Assembly (NCBI GenBank): GCA_027339055.1
Contig: DAHWRK010000004.1
Coordinates: 1-44,813 of the forward strand
Direction of reading: 5' to 3'
DNA: 44,813 nt
Source: Microcaldota archaeon
GTDB lineage: Archaea > Micrarchaeota > Micrarchaeia > Micrarchaeales > Micrarchaeaceae
The notes beneath the pieces were generated by a model. That model saw only the letters and a program-made list of their open reading frames with translations, had not been told where the DNA came from and did no database searches. This document shows positions 16,380 through 43,186 of the stretch, in pieces; within the stretch, counting starts at the first letter, position 1; the number at the start of each line of letters is the position of its first letter. A program made the translations under genes and the position numbers.

Positions 16380-19300
16380 ATGGACATACATGAATATTTT
16401 TCGGAGCTCAGCAAAAATTTCGAGAAGGCATTCGGCGTAGCTACCGAAGCCAAAAAAAGGGGCTACGATCCCGAGCCGTTCGTGGAAATACTTCCCGCGC
16501 CGGACCTTGCCACCAGGGTAGAGGGAATAATAGGAATAAAAGGATTGGCAGATCTCATAAAAAAGAACTCTGAGGGAAAATCCAGGCAGGAGCTCGCATT
16601 CGCCATGGTAAAGGAAGTATGCACAAACGAAAGATTCAACGACGACATAGACAAAAGGCTCTCGCTTGCGACAAAGGTAGGGCTTGCGGTCCTTACAGAG
16701 GGCATACTGGTTGCGCCTACGGAAGGGCTCCAGGGAATAGAGCTTCACAGGAATCAGGATGGAACCGATTACGCGGCCATAATATACGCAGGGCCGATAA
16801 GAGGCGCTGGGGGCACCGCGGCTGCGCTCTCGGTGGCTCTAGCAGATTATGGAAGGAAGATACTCGGAATAGGGGCTTACAAGGCAACGAAGGCCGAGAT
16901 GGACAGATATGTGGAGGAGATCCAAATTTACAATTCGAGAGTGGCAAGGCTACAATACCTGCCGCCGGAACAGGACATAAGGACAATATTCGAAAACTGC
17001 CCGGTCTGCCTTGACGGCCTTGCCTCGGAACAGATAGAAATAGGCATACACAGGAACGTAAACAGGCTTGACGCTGCCGGGAAGCCGCAGATGATATCAA
17101 ACAAGATAAGGAGCGGCATATGCCTTGTTTCATGCGAGGGAATAGCGCAGAAGGCAAAAAGCGTGCTCAAGTACACGAAGGGAGCCGGACTCGACTGGTC
17201 CTGGCTCAACCAGATAATAAAGGTAGAAAAATCCCAGCAGACAGAGCAGAAGGAGACCAAAAAGGACGTTGTATTCCTGCAGGAGCTTGTGGCCGGAAGG
17301 CCGATATTTGCATATCCGGAACATCCAGGAGCCTTCAGGCTCAGATACGGGAGGAGCAGATTCACCGGCATAGCTTCGAAGGGTTTCAACCCCGCAACCA
17401 TGTACCTTATGGATGAATTTATAGCCACCGGAACACAGCTCAAAGTGGAAAAGCCGGGAAAAGGCTGCGTGGCAGTGCCTGTTGATACCATAGAAGGGCC
17501 GTTCGTCAAGCTCGATACTGGCGAGGCCTTCAGGATAAAGGATGCGGACGAGGCAAGAAGGCTTGAACCCCATATAAAAAAGATTTTGTCGGTTGGAGAC
17601 ATACTTGTCACATACGGGGATTTCAAGAAAACGAATACGCCGTTGAGCCCGACGAGCTATGTGGAGGAGTACTGGGCGCTTCAGCTCAAAAAGGCAGGAT
17701 GTAATGAGATTCCGGAAGTATCGAATTTTGCCGAAGCGTTAGAAATCTCAAAAAAATACGGCGTGCCGATGCACCCGAAATTCATATACGATTATTCGGA
17801 CATAAGCACCGAGGACATGCTCTTTCTGGTTGAAACTTTCAAGGAGGCCGACTTCGGAAGCGCAAAAACGCTGGATGAAATCCATTCAGTTACAATAAGC
17901 GGCGACAGGCTGGCAAAGGCCCGCGAGCTTTTGGAGAGGGCCTGCATACCCCACATTGACAGGAACGAAAGCATAGATGTGGAGGGCGAAACAGCAAAGT
18001 CGCTCATTGCCAGCTTTGGGCTCGCGAGGAATGGAAATATGGCCCAAAATGAGGAATTGCCCGAAGATGCGCTGCGGGCGCAGAGCTCGCTTGAGATGCT
18101 CAACAAGCTTGCCAGGTTCAAGATAATGAAGCGCTCCACGAAAATCGGCGGAAGGATGGGAAGGCCGGAGAAGGCAAGGGAGAGGCTGATGAAGCCTGCG
18201 CCGCACATATTGTTCCCGATAGGCGAATATGGGGGCAAGGAGAGGAGCATAACCAAGGCATACGTGCTGCAGGGCAAGAAGTTCAATTCGCAGAGCATAA
18301 ACGTCGAGCTTGCAAGGCACCTCTGCACCAAGGGAGGCGAGTACATAAACTCTTTCTACTGCGAGGAGCACAAGTGCAGGGCAGAGATAATGCGCAAATG
18401 CAAGCTTTGCGGGAACTTCAGCACTGGCTTGAAATGCGAGAAATGCGGAGGCCGCATGGAAGGAGGCGAAATGAAGCAGATAAACATAGTGTCAGAGGTC
18501 AACAGGGCCATGAAAAACATTGGCATGACTTCGCTCCCTAAGCTCATGAAAGGAGTTAAGGGGCTTTCTAATGCCGACAAGCTTGCGGAGCCGTTGGAGA
18601 AGGGATTGCTCCGCAGCGTGCACAATATATTCATATTCAAAGATGGAACATCGAGATTCGACGCGACGGATGTGCCGATAACGCATTTCTATCCTGACGA
18701 GATATCAGTAGACGTAGGCACTTTGAAGAAGCTGGGCTATGACAAAGACTATGAGGGGAATCCGCTTGAGCGCGGGGACCAGCTTGTAGAGCTCATGCAC
18801 CAGGACGTAATATTGAACAGGAGGGGCGCAGATTATTTCATCAACGTAACGCAGTTTACGGACGAAATGCTGGTAAGGTTTTACGGTCTGGAAAAATTTT
18901 ACAACGTATCGGAGCAGAAGGGCCTTATAGGGCATTACGTGATAACGCTTTCTCCGCACACTTCCGCAGGGGTGCTGGGCAGGATTATAGGGTTCACTGA
19001 TGCCAGCGTAGGATTTGCGCATCCGTACCTTATTTCAGCAAGGAGGAGAAACTGCGACGGGGACGAAGACACCACTATGATGCTGCTTGATGCGCTGGTG
19101 AATTTTTCAAAGCATTACATGCCCACTACAGTGGGGGGCACCATGGATGCTCCGCTGATACTCACCGTAAACGTAAAGCCGGAGGAGGTTGACGACGAGG
19201 TCCACGCCATGGAAGTGGTGGAAAGCTACGGCATAGATTTTTATGACAAGACATATTCATATCCTGCGCCAGGAGAAGTTAAGGTAGAGATAGTTGGAGA

Positions 19301-19823
19301 CAGGCTTCAGAAGGATTCCATTTATTCGGGGATAAAGTTTACTCACCTTTCCGGAATAAATGCAGTGGCACAGGCCCCTAAAAGAAGTTCATACACTACG
19401 CTCAAGACAATGAACGACAAAATAGAGATGCAGTTCAGCCTGATGGACAAGCTGTACAGCATAGACAAGAGGGACACCGCCAGGAGGCTCATACTAAGCC
19501 ATTTCATACCTGACTTAATGGGCAACCTGCATTCATACTCCAGGCAGGGATTCCGCTGCGTGCAGTGCAATGCCAAATATAGGCGCATACCGATAAAAGG
19601 AGTATGCACCAGATGCGGCGGCAAGCTTTTGCTCACGATATCGAAGGGAGGAATAGAGAAGTATCTGTACACTGCAATAAACCTTGCCGACAGGTATGAG
19701 CTTGAGCCTTACATAAAGCAGAGGATACTTCTTCTCAAGGAAGAAATAGAGGCGGTATTCGGGCAGGTAGGAACCGTGCCGATAAAAGACGACAAGCAGT
19801 TCAACCTGCTTAAATTCATGTAG
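16380..19823 (+). CDS. polC: DNA polymerase D large subunit (DP2)
   Basis: This 1,147-residue catalytic subunit of the archaeal replicative polymerase PolD begins with the conserved EYFSELSKNFEKAF segment. It contains GPIRGAGGTAAA near 140, a zinc finger of CxxHxC...CxxC...CxxC type (about 660-694), and the catalytic double-psi beta-barrel motif RNCDGDEDTTMMLLDALVNF near 890. A second zinc finger, CVQC...CTRC, lies at about 1058-1082. No intein interrupts it, unlike several Pyrococcus homologues. The C-terminus, KQFNLLKFM, resembles a PCNA-interacting peptide (Q-x-x-L-x-x-F-M). It ends 1 nt before the convergent PolX gene. Confidence 0.98.
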   Translation: MDIHEYFSELSKNFEKAFGVATEAKKRGYDPEPFVEILPAPDLATRVEGIIGIKGLADLIKKNSEGKSRQELAFAMVKEVCTNERFNDDIDKRLSLATKVGLAVLTEGILVAPTEGLQGIELHRNQDGTDYAAIIYAGPIRGAGGTAAALSVALADYGRKILGIGAYKATKAEMDRYVEEIQIYNSRVARLQYLPPEQDIRTIFENCPVCLDGLASEQIEIGIHRNVNRLDAAGKPQMISNKIRSGICLVSCEGIAQKAKSVLKYTKGAGLDWSWLNQIIKVEKSQQTEQKETKKDVVFLQELVAGRPIFAYPEHPGAFRLRYGRSRFTGIASKGFNPATMYLMDEFIATGTQLKVEKPGKGCVAVPVDTIEGPFVKLDTGEAFRIKDADEARRLEPHIKKILSVGDILVTYGDFKKTNTPLSPTSYVEEYWALQLKKAGCNEIPEVSNFAEALEISKKYGVPMHPKFIYDYSDISTEDMLFLVETFKEADFGSAKTLDEIHSVTISGDRLAKARELLERACIPHIDRNESIDVEGETAKSLIASFGLARNGNMAQNEELPEDALRAQSSLEMLNKLARFKIMKRSTKIGGRMGRPEKARERLMKPAPHILFPIGEYGGKERSITKAYVLQGKKFNSQSINVELARHLCTKGGEYINSFYCEEHKCRAEIMRKCKLCGNFSTGLKCEKCGGRMEGGEMKQINIVSEVNRAMKNIGMTSLPKLMKGVKGLSNADKLAEPLEKGLLRSVHNIFIFKDGTSRFDATDVPITHFYPDEISVDVGTLKKLGYDKDYEGNPLERGDQLVELMHQDVILNRRGADYFINVTQFTDEMLVRFYGLEKFYNVSEQKGLIGHYVITLSPHTSAGVLGRIIGFTDASVGFAHPYLISARRRNCDGDEDTTMMLLDALVNFSKHYMPTTVGGTMDAPLILTVNVKPEEVDDEVHAMEVVESYGIDFYDKTYSYPAPGEVKVEIVGDRLQKDSIYSGIKFTHLSGINAVAQAPKRSSYTTLKTMNDKIEMQFSLMDKLYSIDKRDTARRLILSHFIPDLMGNLHSYSRQGFRCVQCNAKYRRIPIKGVCTRCGGKLLLTISKGGIEKYLYTAINLADRYELEPYIKQRILLLKEEIEAVFGQVGTVPIKDDKQFNLLKFM

Positions 19824-23078: not shown

Positions 23079-24128
23079 TCAGAACCACTTGGATATGCCT
23101 TCCTGCCTGGACGAGTCCCTCTTTTTGGCCAGAAGCTCGGCAAACTTGACAATACGGGATTCCGAAAACTCGTAATCGTCGCACATCATGCGCTTTATGC
23201 CTTCTATATCGGGCTTTGACGAGATCATTTTCTCCAGTTCCTGCTTCTCGATACGTTTGACATCGGGATTATTGAACAGCTCTTCAACCTCTCGTATGTC
23301 GGTCTGGAAGGGGGTCTTGAACTTCTGCTCGACTATTGACTCCACGTCGCTTATGCTCTTTGCTTCCATTGCTATTTTGAGCGCTGTCTTCGGGCCTATG
23401 CCCTTTATGCCGTCGTTGAAGTCGTTTCCTAGCATTATGCCTATCCATATGAGCTGCTGCCTTGATATCCCCATTGCTTTGAGCGTTTCAGCCAGTATCA
23501 CGCGCTCTGGCTCGACCTCCACATAAACGTTCTTTTTGGGGAGTTTGCGCCTTCCGGAAAGCGTAAGGTTCCTTATTATTACAGGAGCACCGAAGAGCAG
23601 AGTGTCATAATCCTGGCTTGCAGCAGCGTCCACAAGGCCTTCCTTGCACATGTAGCTGGCTTGGGCCTCGCCCTCACCTGTAGAGGTAAGCTGGGCTATG
23701 CCCATAAGGCCCAGAAGCTCCTTTGCGCTAGATACTATCGCCTTGTCCACTCTGGTGCTTTCCTGTGCGTATGTCCTTGCCGCTTCAAGGGCCCCCTGCG
23801 CTTTTGCCTCGAGCCAAGCGTTGTAGGCGGTGTCCCTCCTCCTTGTCCTTGCCTCTATGGTCTTCATCTTGAGCTTTGAGGGTATGCCATCAAACACATA
23901 TACCGGAGTTATCCCGTTTTGTATCAGGTCTATGCTCCTGTAGAAAAGCCCCGACAAGTGGCTTGTTACCCTGCCCTTTGAATCCTTTAGCGGCGTGCCG
24001 TCCGGCTGCCTTATTATTGAAAGAAACTGGTAGAGCACGTTGTACGCATCTATTGCTACCGTTTTGCCGCTTAGCTCCTTGAGCGATATCTTCTCCCTGA
24101 TTATGAGTTTGCTAAGGTCTACCGCCAT
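23079..24128 (-). CDS. fen: Flap endonuclease 1
   Basis: This structure-specific 5' nuclease processes Okazaki fragments and repair flaps. Counting from the ATG at 24128 (349 residues), it starts MAVDLSKLI, with Asp27 in VAIDAYN, FDGIPSKLK, the acidic STGEGEAQASYM, SQDYDTLLFG, and GNDFNDGIKGIGPKTAL (the last metal ligand plus helix-hairpin-helix). The family normally begins M-G-V, with the glycine near the active site; here it is alanine. A GTG at 24137 is possible, but the ATG fits the family start. The C-terminus, QEGISKWF, is a PIP box for PCNA binding. It follows MBF1 closely and is likely co-transcribed. Confidence 0.97.
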   Translation of the reverse strand: MAVDLSKLIIREKISLKELSGKTVAIDAYNVLYQFLSIIRQPDGTPLKDSKGRVTSHLSGLFYRSIDLIQNGITPVYVFDGIPSKLKMKTIEARTRRRDTAYNAWLEAKAQGALEAARTYAQESTRVDKAIVSSAKELLGLMGIAQLTSTGEGEAQASYMCKEGLVDAAASQDYDTLLFGAPVIIRNLTLSGRRKLPKKNVYVEVEPERVILAETLKAMGISRQQLIWIGIMLGNDFNDGIKGIGPKTALKIAMEAKSISDVESIVEQKFKTPFQTDIREVEELFNNPDVKRIEKQELEKMISSKPDIEGIKRMMCDDYEFSESRIVKFAELLAKKRDSSRQEGISKWF

Positions 24129-24140
24129 CTCAAGCACTTT

Positions 24141-40378: not shown

Positions 40379-41530
40379 TTAGGGAAGCTTTGCAACACCT
40401 TTGAGAAGCAAGTACATGGCAGCATAGTTTGGCAGCACTGCCTTCTTGTTTTCGAAAGGCCCATATTCCATTCCATTCATTGTGAGCTTTTCCTTTGTGT
40501 CTGCCACCACTAGCGTTTCGCCCTTCTCGAAGGCTATGCAATCTTTCATCGGGTCAAACCTCTCGAAAGCAGATACGCTTTCTACGGATTTTGCCACCAG
40601 GCCCGTGCCTCCGTGCAGCGTGTCGGTCATGCCTAGCAGGTGCTGCGGATTCTTGGTGACGTTGCTGTCTATCGAATCGCTCTGTTTTATCGTCATGCTC
40701 TCGGCCACCTTTCTCCAGAACTCATCCTTCTTCGGTATGCTGACCTTGTCCCAGTTCCCGGTTGTTATTCCTAGCACTATGCTTGGCTTGTTCAGATACA
40801 TCTTGCGAGCCATCTGCCTGGCAATGCCAAGAGCCTGCAGCTGCGTTTCGCCGGCGTTAAGAGCCGTTACAAGAGATCTGGCCATCCTGCCTCCCCACCC
40901 GGGGTCGTTCGGCTTCGGACCCTGCAGCCTTGAACTCTTGTCCGCTATGTTGGGAAAAAAGCTTTCCGGCTTCAGCCCTCTGCCGGTCACGTAGTCGCTT
41001 ATCTCGCTCCTGGATGCCTCGTCAAGGGTGAGTACCGACTCCGAGCCTATTATTATGTGGTAGCCCCTGTTGCCGCTGAAGTTTATCTTTATCTCCTTGT
41101 TAGAAAACCCGAAATCTGGAATCAGGAATTCCTCTATGAGCTTGAAGGCTTCGCGCTTGACGTCGTGAAGGCAGTTCGGGCACACCCAGGAAGTTCCGTG
41201 CCGCTTCTGGCACTCTAAGTGCAGATCCGAAGCGTCCAGGTCAAAAACCAGCTCGCTCCCGAGCCAGCCCTTGGTCTCCATTGGCCTGCCGGAAGGATTT
41301 TCATAGAATGCAGGAGATGCAGATATGAAAGCGGGTGAATTTGCGTCTATGTACCTGTTGAGCGACTCGGCGTTGTTGAAGGCCATGTGCCTCTTGGCTA
41401 TTTTCTTGTCGAATGTGCCAAACCCGAACTCTCTTTTCGTCAGATTGCTTATCGCGATAGGGTGCTTCCGGTAAAATTCTCTGAACATCGCCCTTGCCAG
41501 GCTCTGCACGCTTTGATCGATATCAGGCAT
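40379..41530 (-). CDS. priS: DNA primase catalytic small subunit
   Basis: This 383-residue archaeo-eukaryotic primase synthesises RNA or DNA primers for PolD. Catalytic Asp97 and Asp99 lie in ELVFDLDASDL, with zinc ligands Cys107, Cys117 and Cys120 (ECQKRHGTSWVCPNC), the SGNRGYHI motif at 152-159, and the third acidic residue region near DKVSIPKKDE-type sequence later. The length is slightly above the Pyrococcus protein. PriL is not in this window. A TATA-like box at 41551-41560 sits about 25 nt before the ATG. Confidence 0.96.
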   Translation of the reverse strand: MPDIDQSVQSLARAMFREFYRKHPIAISNLTKREFGFGTFDKKIAKRHMAFNNAESLNRYIDANSPAFISASPAFYENPSGRPMETKGWLGSELVFDLDASDLHLECQKRHGTSWVCPNCLHDVKREAFKLIEEFLIPDFGFSNKEIKINFSGNRGYHIIIGSESVLTLDEASRSEISDYVTGRGLKPESFFPNIADKSSRLQGPKPNDPGWGGRMARSLVTALNAGETQLQALGIARQMARKMYLNKPSIVLGITTGNWDKVSIPKKDEFWRKVAESMTIKQSDSIDSNVTKNPQHLLGMTDTLHGGTGLVAKSVESVSAFERFDPMKDCIAFEKGETLVVADTKEKLTMNGMEYGPFENKKAVLPNYAAMYLLLKGVAKLP

Positions 41531-41560: not shown

Positions 41561-41671
41561 CTTGCCTTTGCCGTTATAACGCCGAAATGCGCAGCCAATA
41601 TGCACTTTGACGATAGACGTAGTGGCAGCAGTGCAATTTAAACCTGCATTAAAAATTACTTGCTGACCAAC

Positions 41672-42253
41672 ATGGCTTTTGTTGTAGTAGATTTGGACGG
41701 ATGCCTGGTGGACGATGTCCATGAAACTTTCGGCAAGTTCCTCAGGCGCGAAGATTCTGGCACAGAGCATATGTTCAAGGAACTCATATTCAATGCCCTT
41801 GACAGGATACCTTCTGTAGTCGATTCCGTGGCGATGAGAATGGACGTGGAAAGGGGGCTCAACATGCACGTCGTCAAAGCCCTGAAAACGATTTACGATT
41901 CGGGATTTGATGTAATTGTAAGGACAGCAAACAGGAAGATAGGCGCATCTGGCGCAGAAAGGATAAAATCCGTTCTGGAGCGCTACGGGATAGAAGCCAG
42001 CGTGGAGCTCACTGAGGATAAGCATAAAAGCGCGGAGCGGAACGGCGAAAAGCCTGCGCTTCTGCTCGACGACAAGCCGAATGTAGTGATAAATGCCGCA
42101 AGGAATGGGATAAAATCGATATTGATACGCACTGATTACAACAGAGTAGCGGGACTCTTCATCAATGGAGTAAATAATTTGGTAACCATCGCTGCGCCTG
42201 AGGACATGGACAGCGCATGCGCTAAGGCGCTCAGGAATCGCACTTCCGCATGA
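41672..42253 (+). CDS. HAD-superfamily hydrolase-like protein
   Basis: The product is 193 residues from the ATG at 41672 (the upstream TTG at 41660 is less likely). Motif I is VVVDLDGCLVDD at the very start, motif II is VIVRTANRK (about 88-96), and motif IV is ALLLDDKPNVV (about 134-144). A helical cap-like region lies between I and II. The N-terminal nucleophile is typical of small HAD phosphatases; the substrate is unknown. The YgjP-like protease gene starts 43 nt downstream on the same strand, so the two may be co-transcribed. Confidence 0.82.
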   Translation: MAFVVVDLDGCLVDDVHETFGKFLRREDSGTEHMFKELIFNALDRIPSVVDSVAMRMDVERGLNMHVVKALKTIYDSGFDVIVRTANRKIGASGAERIKSVLERYGIEASVELTEDKHKSAERNGEKPALLLDDKPNVVINAARNGIKSILIRTDYNRVAGLFINGVNNLVTIAAPEDMDSACAKALRNRTSA

Positions 42254-42295: not shown

Positions 42296-43186
42296 ATGCT
42301 AGGCATCCCATCCCCATCCGAATATGCAAAACGCTTGGAGCCCATAGAATTCTACGGCAAAAGATTGGAAGTTGAGATAGTAGAGGCAAGGCTCAAGAAT
42401 GGCTATGCATCGATAAGGAACGGCAAGGTAATGATAAGGGTGCCGCAGCGGTGCAGCAGGAAACGAAAGCTTATGATTATAGACGAGCTATATGGAAAGA
42501 TATCGAATGCGATAAGAAAAAAGCCAGGCAGCTTTCTAAGGAACAGCCCGCTTGAATTTAGGGATGGGGAGATTATTGCGCCTTTATCTGAAAGGCTTGT
42601 AATATCAGTAAGTGAATCCGGCTCTGTGCACTCGCGAGTAGCGATTAGAAACGGCATTGTTTCGGTAAAGCTTGGAAGAAATAGCAGCAGGAATGTATCG
42701 GATCTAGTTTCGAGGGCGCTGGCAAAGCATTGCAAAAGCTATGTTGATAGCCATGTAAGGGAATGGAATCAAAGGTTCGGCAGCGAGCTTGGAAGGATAA
42801 GCATAAGCAGGGGACTTACGATATGGGGGTCATGCTCGCCCAAAAACAACATATCGATAAACCTAAGGCTTCTTTTCCTTGACAGAAAATTCCTTGATTA
42901 TGTCGTAGTGCACGAGCTTTCGCACACGAAAGTAAGGTCGCACTCAAAAAGGTTCTGGAAAACAGTCGCAAAATACATCCCCGAATACAGGTCATTAAGA
43001 AAAGAGCTTAAGATTGCAGGCGCTAGGATAGACACAGAGTTTAAGGAGAGACCCGACCCCGTAAGTGCAATAGAAAATGAAAAAGAGGCAAAAAAGGGCG
43101 CCGCGGAAACGGCACCTACAGAAGAAAAAAAGAATGAAATTGCGCAGGCGTCAGGCCAGCGCAATATGCTGGATTATTTCAGCTGA
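42296..43186 (+). CDS. YgjP/SprT-like zinc metalloprotease with C-terminal PIP box
   Basis: This 296-residue protein has an N-terminal beta-rich domain (about 1-150) and a DUF45/YgjP-type gluzincin core. That core carries WGSCSPKNNISINLRL (about 179-194), zinc motif HELSH (about 206-210) and the downstream third ligand region RSHSKRFWKTVAKYIPEY. A Lys/Glu/Ala-rich flexible tail (about 250-285) ends in QRNMLDYFS, which fits the PCNA-interacting consensus Q-x-x-M-x-x-Y-F exactly. The protease-linker-PIP layout parallels eukaryotic Spartan (SPRTN), which removes DNA-protein crosslinks at replication forks. The protease family is clear; the PCNA link and crosslink role are inferred. It is convergent with the P1 gene, 5 nt away. 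Confidence 0.88.
   Translation: MLGIPSPSEYAKRLEPIEFYGKRLEVEIVEARLKNGYASIRNGKVMIRVPQRCSRKRKLMIIDELYGKISNAIRKKPGSFLRNSPLEFRDGEIIAPLSERLVISVSESGSVHSRVAIRNGIVSVKLGRNSSRNVSDLVSRALAKHCKSYVDSHVREWNQRFGSELGRISISRGLTIWGSCSPKNNISINLRLLFLDRKFLDYVVVHELSHTKVRSHSKRFWKTVAKYIPEYRSLRKELKIAGARIDTEFKERPDPVSAIENEKEAKKGAAETAPTEEKKNEIAQASGQRNMLDYFS

Follow-up and report, generated by a model that had tools for sequence, protein, structure and literature searches.

The human enzyme SPRTN removes proteins that have become stuck to DNA, Wss1 is a DNA-protein crosslink protease, and YgjP-like proteases (PF01863, the family formerly called DUF45) are common in bacteria and archaea. The published architecture of SPRTN comprises an N-terminal zinc protease, a disordered tail and a PIP box, the last of which is dispensable for crosslink repair in the human enzyme (PMC12279946), and a published grouping unites both Wss1 and Spartan with the minigluzincins (PMC4559962). 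The PIP box itself is defined as QXXhXXaa (PMC4929162). In archaea, the endonuclease EndoQ of T. kodakarensis carries the PIP box QRSITEFL at its very C-terminus (KD 55 nM), the deletion of which abolishes binding, while QRTLLQYI is the predicted C-terminal PIP motif of P. furiosus EndoQ (PMC4858679). Our literature search retrieved no assigned role for the YgjP-like proteases, no paper connecting YgjP-like proteins to PCNA and none on an archaeal Spartan or a PCNA-linked archaeal protease, and the papers naming YgjP do not address its function in their titles and abstracts.

Here, we analysed a DNA stretch of 44,813 nucleotides (the window) from a tiny acid-loving archaeon, which encodes a YgjP-like protein with the following features:

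42296..43186, plus strand: YgjP-like (PF01863) metalloprotease gene, 296 aa, with a C-terminal PIP box (open reading frame, Pfam, AlphaFold2)
42410..43012, plus strand: YgjP-like domain, residues 39-239 (Pfam)
42824..42838, plus strand: WGSCS segment, residues 177-181 (homologue alignment)
42911..42958, plus strand: zinc site HELSHTKVRSHSKRFW, residues 206-221, HExxHxxxxxHxxxFW (homologue alignment)
43025..43156, plus strand: acidic linker, residues 244-287, pI 4.8 (AlphaFold2, sequence comparison)
43157..43180, plus strand: PIP box QRNMLDYF, Q288-F295, one residue ahead of the stop codon (genus conservation)

The open reading frame starts with ATG and ends in GQRNMLDYFS followed by the stop codon. 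Its product matched the YgjP-like Pfam model with 140.7 bits (cut-off 26) over profile positions 6-205 of 207, whereas the SprT-like (PF10263; 20.4 bits, cut-off 25.6) and WLM (PF08325; 21.8 bits, cut-off 26) models remained below their cut-offs, and an NCBIfam search gave no match. The gluzincin HELSH site and YgjP-like WGSCS segment described in the initial annotation were both recovered, the former as residues 206-210 and the latter as residues 177-181. An alignment of 57 homologues revealed WGSCS to be largely invariant across the family and H206, E207, H210, H216 and F220 to be invariant throughout. The AlphaFold2 model derived from 57 homologues reached a mean pLDDT of 87.1 and a pTM of 0.73, with pLDDT values below 50 from residue 272 onward and a short helical turn inside the terminal octamer. 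Residues 1-243 are strongly basic (pI 10.4). Judged from sequence and model, the zinc site is intact, the domain basic and the linker disordered, and we consider it likely that the YgjP enzyme has protease activity. We rejected the idea that basic charge is a special DNA-binding sign of PIP-bearing members: median pI values of Micrarchaeota YgjP proteins with and without a PIP motif are 10.11 and 10.06, and the high pI, being general to the YgjP proteins of the phylum, is no mark of the PIP-bearing ones.

Comparison within the genus covered eight Ca. Micrarchaeum genomes, among them that of the cultivated strain A_DKE, and all of them encode the YgjP protein. The initial annotation had made its reading depend on conservation of the tail in close homologues, and the PIP motif is indeed kept in seven of the eight genomes at protein identities of 49-93%. 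The tails read QRNMLDYF in four genomes and QRTIFDFR (second aromatic missing), QRHISDFI and QGSLLDYM in the others. The four closest genomes share an identical octamer in proteins that are 77-93% identical, with only synonymous and no non-synonymous changes in the octamer codons; in Ca. Micrarchaeum harzensis A_DKE, the protein is 93% identical to that of the window and its tail is unchanged. Between divergent genus members, linkers scored near the level of shuffled sequence (z = -0.6 to 3.0), whereas the octamers scored above shuffles (P 0-0.006). As the octamer is kept while the linkers are near shuffle level, the tail is under selection; the sequences show a PIP motif that is under purifying selection in the genus and recurs in a second clade. 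The exception is G005, which branches first within the genus and whose YgjP protein (L008) lacks the PIP tail. A frameshift was considered as the cause of this absence and rejected: the gene stops directly before the gene for ribosomal protein L12, and no PIP-like motif was seen downstream.

Two neighbouring genes lie upstream of the YgjP gene:

41660..42253, plus strand: HAD-like hydrolase (sequence motifs), separated from the YgjP gene by a 42 bp gap
40379..41530, minus strand: DNA primase small subunit PriS (PF01896), divergent from the HAD-YgjP pair

The HAD-like protein (41660-42253) matched no Pfam family at E 0.001 and was identified by eye; its gene and the YgjP gene are probably co-transcribed. 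The order primase (divergent), HAD-like, YgjP and ribosomal L12 (convergent) is found in the window and in four inspected loci of the genus, and L12 also adjoins the tail-less YgjP copy of G005 on its downstream side. Among the inspected loci, G001 alone carries an S41-peptidase-like open reading frame (by eye; L034:3476-4726, minus strand) between YgjP and L12. The nearby primase gene, kept in this order, counts in favour of the clamp-tethered protease proposed below but is suggestive only.

The terminal peptide, proposed at the outset to fit the PIP-box consensus, bears this out with Q288-F295 (QRNMLDYF): a Q-x-x-h-x-x-a-a motif on a disordered tail, found in seven of eight genus members with variation at position 8. 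The genus tails QRTIFDFR and QRHISDFI are near-matches to the EndoQ motifs QRSITEFL and QRTLLQYI (PMC4858679). Archaeal EndoQ, FEN1, PolD DP2 and NreA all resemble the YgjP protein in having their PIP box at the very C-terminus; they comprise nucleases, one polymerase and one repair factor, whereas YgjP is a predicted protease. The window itself provides two yardsticks for PIP boxes of the genus:

23082..23105, minus strand: FEN1 PIP box QEGISKWF (FEN1, 23079-24137)
19797..19820, plus strand: PolD DP2 PIP-like tail QFNLLKFM (DP2, 16380-19823)

Both tails, which the YgjP octamer resembles, agree with the earlier remark that FEN1 and PolD in the window end in PIP-like peptides. The FEN1 tail QEGISKWF occurs in seven of the eight genus genomes, and DP2 ends in QFNLLKFM, QFNLLKYM or QFNLTQYL. 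PCNA was found in seven of eight genomes, that of the window included, with gene matches of 70.3 bits to PCNA_N and 57.3 bits to PCNA_C. Taken together, the YgjP tail motif very probably binds the PCNA of the organism. In a DNA-pattern census of PIP-like C-termini across four genomes of the genus, counts only slightly exceeded those of a reversed-pattern control and carried no statistical weight. The census surfaced an EndoQ-like PHP protein of G001 (L296:219-1490, minus strand) ending in QQKSMSDFFS directly before the stop, nearly a twin of the YgjP tail; the EndoQ-like identity is our own reading, with NCBIfam TIGR00375 scoring below its cut-off.

On balance, we favour the reading that the YgjP protein is a minigluzincin-like zinc protease whose flexible acidic linker carries a PIP box that tethers it to the sliding clamp. 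The PIP box would dock the protein on PCNA, much as in FEN1, PolD and EndoQ, the flexible acidic tether would let the basic protease domain sample proteins bound to DNA in the vicinity, and fork-blocking proteins would be cut in their exposed segments by the zinc site. The motif, its conservation, the disorder, the active site and the presence of PCNA rest on the evidence gathered here, while we infer binding, catalysis and substrate. More tentatively, docking may bring the enzyme to DNA-bound proteins at or behind replication forks for trimming, with covalent crosslinks as the likeliest targets; as the PIP box of human SPRTN is dispensable for crosslink repair, such a motif alone implies neither that function nor that substrate. 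Alternatively, a PCNA-docked protease might have another job, processing PCNA-bound clients or clamp complexes, such as by removing a polymerase or a different clamp client, or acting as a PCNA-competing regulator, with no part in crosslink repair. The PIP evidence fits such a role equally well, archaea have small PCNA competitors such as TIP (PMC4929162), and SPRTN repairs crosslinks without its PIP box (PMC12279946); however, the invariant catalytic residues speak against a purely competitive role and no specific client is indicated. We regard this alternative as rather unlikely.

Beyond the genus, PF01863 is present in 156 of 295 sampled Micrarchaeota genomes, and the family was also detected in Haloferax volcanii. 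Our tail survey comprised 150 distinct Micrarchaeota YgjP C-termini (142 from outside the genus), most of which finish a few residues past the domain. Strict PIP motifs were found in 11 of the 150 tails versus 0.2 expected from shuffled tails, and outside the genus in 5 of 142 versus 0.18 expected (0 of 5000 shuffles), while only 1 of 274 control open reading frames had such a motif within its final 25 residues. Of these five, four belong to a second, distant clade of Micrarchaeota (f7), namely QQKITRFL (L195), QLTMEEFI (L171), QQKISSFF (L132) and QETLIEFL (L128), and a single outlier in another family ends in QKTLITYL (L020); further candidates come from L211 (QLSLEEFS) and, in degenerate form, from L246 (HKTLEEFE). 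Within the Micrarchaeota sample, PIP tails are confined to a single genus, part of a second clade and one outlier, and the scope "archaeal" given to the protein in the initial annotation was too wide. The absence of the tail from G005 and from most Micrarchaeota YgjP proteins indicates that clamp docking is dispensable for the core role of the family. On a domain-only tree (a quick tree with many weakly supported forks), the trait changes at least five times, and its history may be one of repeated gain or of an old origin followed by losses, either of which the tree fits. The best 80 loci of a scan of named genomes belonged to Micrarchaeota and bacteria only, with no PIP-like tails in the bacterial homologues among them, and a plasmid search for YgjP proteins yielded bacterial ones only among the matches listed. 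A different C-terminal signature, the tetrapeptide [DE]EPY, is common to YgjP proteins of a distant Micrarchaeota clade (L150, L120, L130, L165, L184, L246 and L211), and in L211 and L246 it directly follows the PIP-like stretch (QLSLEEFSDEPY, HKTLEEFELDEPY).

It is also conceivable that the tail is a functional short motif that serves another partner or acts as a C-terminal stability signal instead of binding PCNA. Position 8 varies within the genus (F, R, I, M), and the [DE]EPY tetrapeptide of other family members indicates that these tails can carry other signals; yet Q1, the hydrophobic residue at position 4 and the aromatic at position 7 are conserved just as in PIP boxes, the DP2 tail of this genus likewise tolerates M or L as its eighth residue, and the motif turns up again in other lineages, which together make this reading improbable. 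A chance PIP lookalike conserved merely through recent ancestry, as the identical tails of the four closest and overall 77-93% identical genomes might suggest, is already disfavoured and very improbable, since the octamer persists where divergent linkers do not rise clearly above shuffles, its changes are synonymous only, and its recurrence in a second clade was matched in 0 of 5000 shuffles.

The proposed PCNA-tethered protease can finally be placed among the known systems. With the YgjP family (PF01863), the protein of the window shares a full-length domain match, WGSCS and HExxHxxxxxHxxxFW; most sampled members end just past the domain, whereas this one adds a linker of ~45 residues and a PIP box. 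Foldseek searches with the AlphaFold2 model returned the archaeal minigluzincins (abylysin, selecase, jannalysin) as nearest neighbours with a probability of 1.00 (4jiu, E 8e-4), followed by Wss1 (5xbv and 5ln5, probability 0.97), while the match to SPRTN (6mdw) was weak (probability 0.21); a profile search agreed. S. pombe Wss1 displays the same HExxHxxxxxH...FW signature and the active sites align, and a minigluzincin-like fold with HExxHxxxxxH is common to both, although the WLM profile score (21.8 bits) is below the 26 required for Wss1/WLM (PF08325). As Wss1 and Spartan are grouped with the minigluzincins, the kinship of YgjP to the crosslink proteases lies at superfamily level. Wss1 uses SHP, VIM and SUMO motifs (PMC4559962), in place of which the YgjP protein of the window has a PIP box.

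With SPRTN, the protein shares the layout of N-terminal zinc protease, disordered tail and PIP box, but here the PIP box forms the extreme C-terminus. The zinc-binding subdomain of SPRTN is absent, the only three cysteines (53, 146 and 180) being isolated without a closely spaced pair; no F.G.G..[LV] match to an SHP box for p97/Cdc48 occurs in the protein; and a C-terminal UBZ zinc finger is lacking, with no cysteine past residue 180 and the chain ending at the PIP box. The two families are nevertheless related, as the G005 homologue scores 28.7 bits on the SprT model, above the cut-off of 25.6. A SprT search of the relatives recovered mostly the YgjP genes themselves and no other convincing SprT-like gene in the genus. 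Of the original designation as an SprT/YgjP-like candidate Spartan, the YgjP-like metalloprotease with a conserved PIP box was retained, while membership in SprT/Spartan was abandoned in view of the SprT score below cut-off, the missing zinc-binding subdomain and SHP box, and a fold nearer to the minigluzincins and Wss1. On the favoured reading, the protein would be a functional analogue of SPRTN and Wss1, not a SPRTN orthologue.

The conserved clamp-docking tail provides a specific hint that one YgjP protease works at the replication fork, and the system is directly testable because the relatives include the cultivated A_DKE and only small proteins would be required. Should the enzyme prove to cleave DNA-bound proteins, archaea would own a clamp-coupled SPRTN analogue from a different protease family. 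In its widest form, which we put forward as a possibility on the unlikely side, Micrarchaeota would, apparently more than once, have joined a clamp-docking peptide to YgjP, making YgjP a prokaryotic family of DNA-protein-crosslink proteases and its PIP-bearing members replication-coupled proteases convergent with SPRTN.
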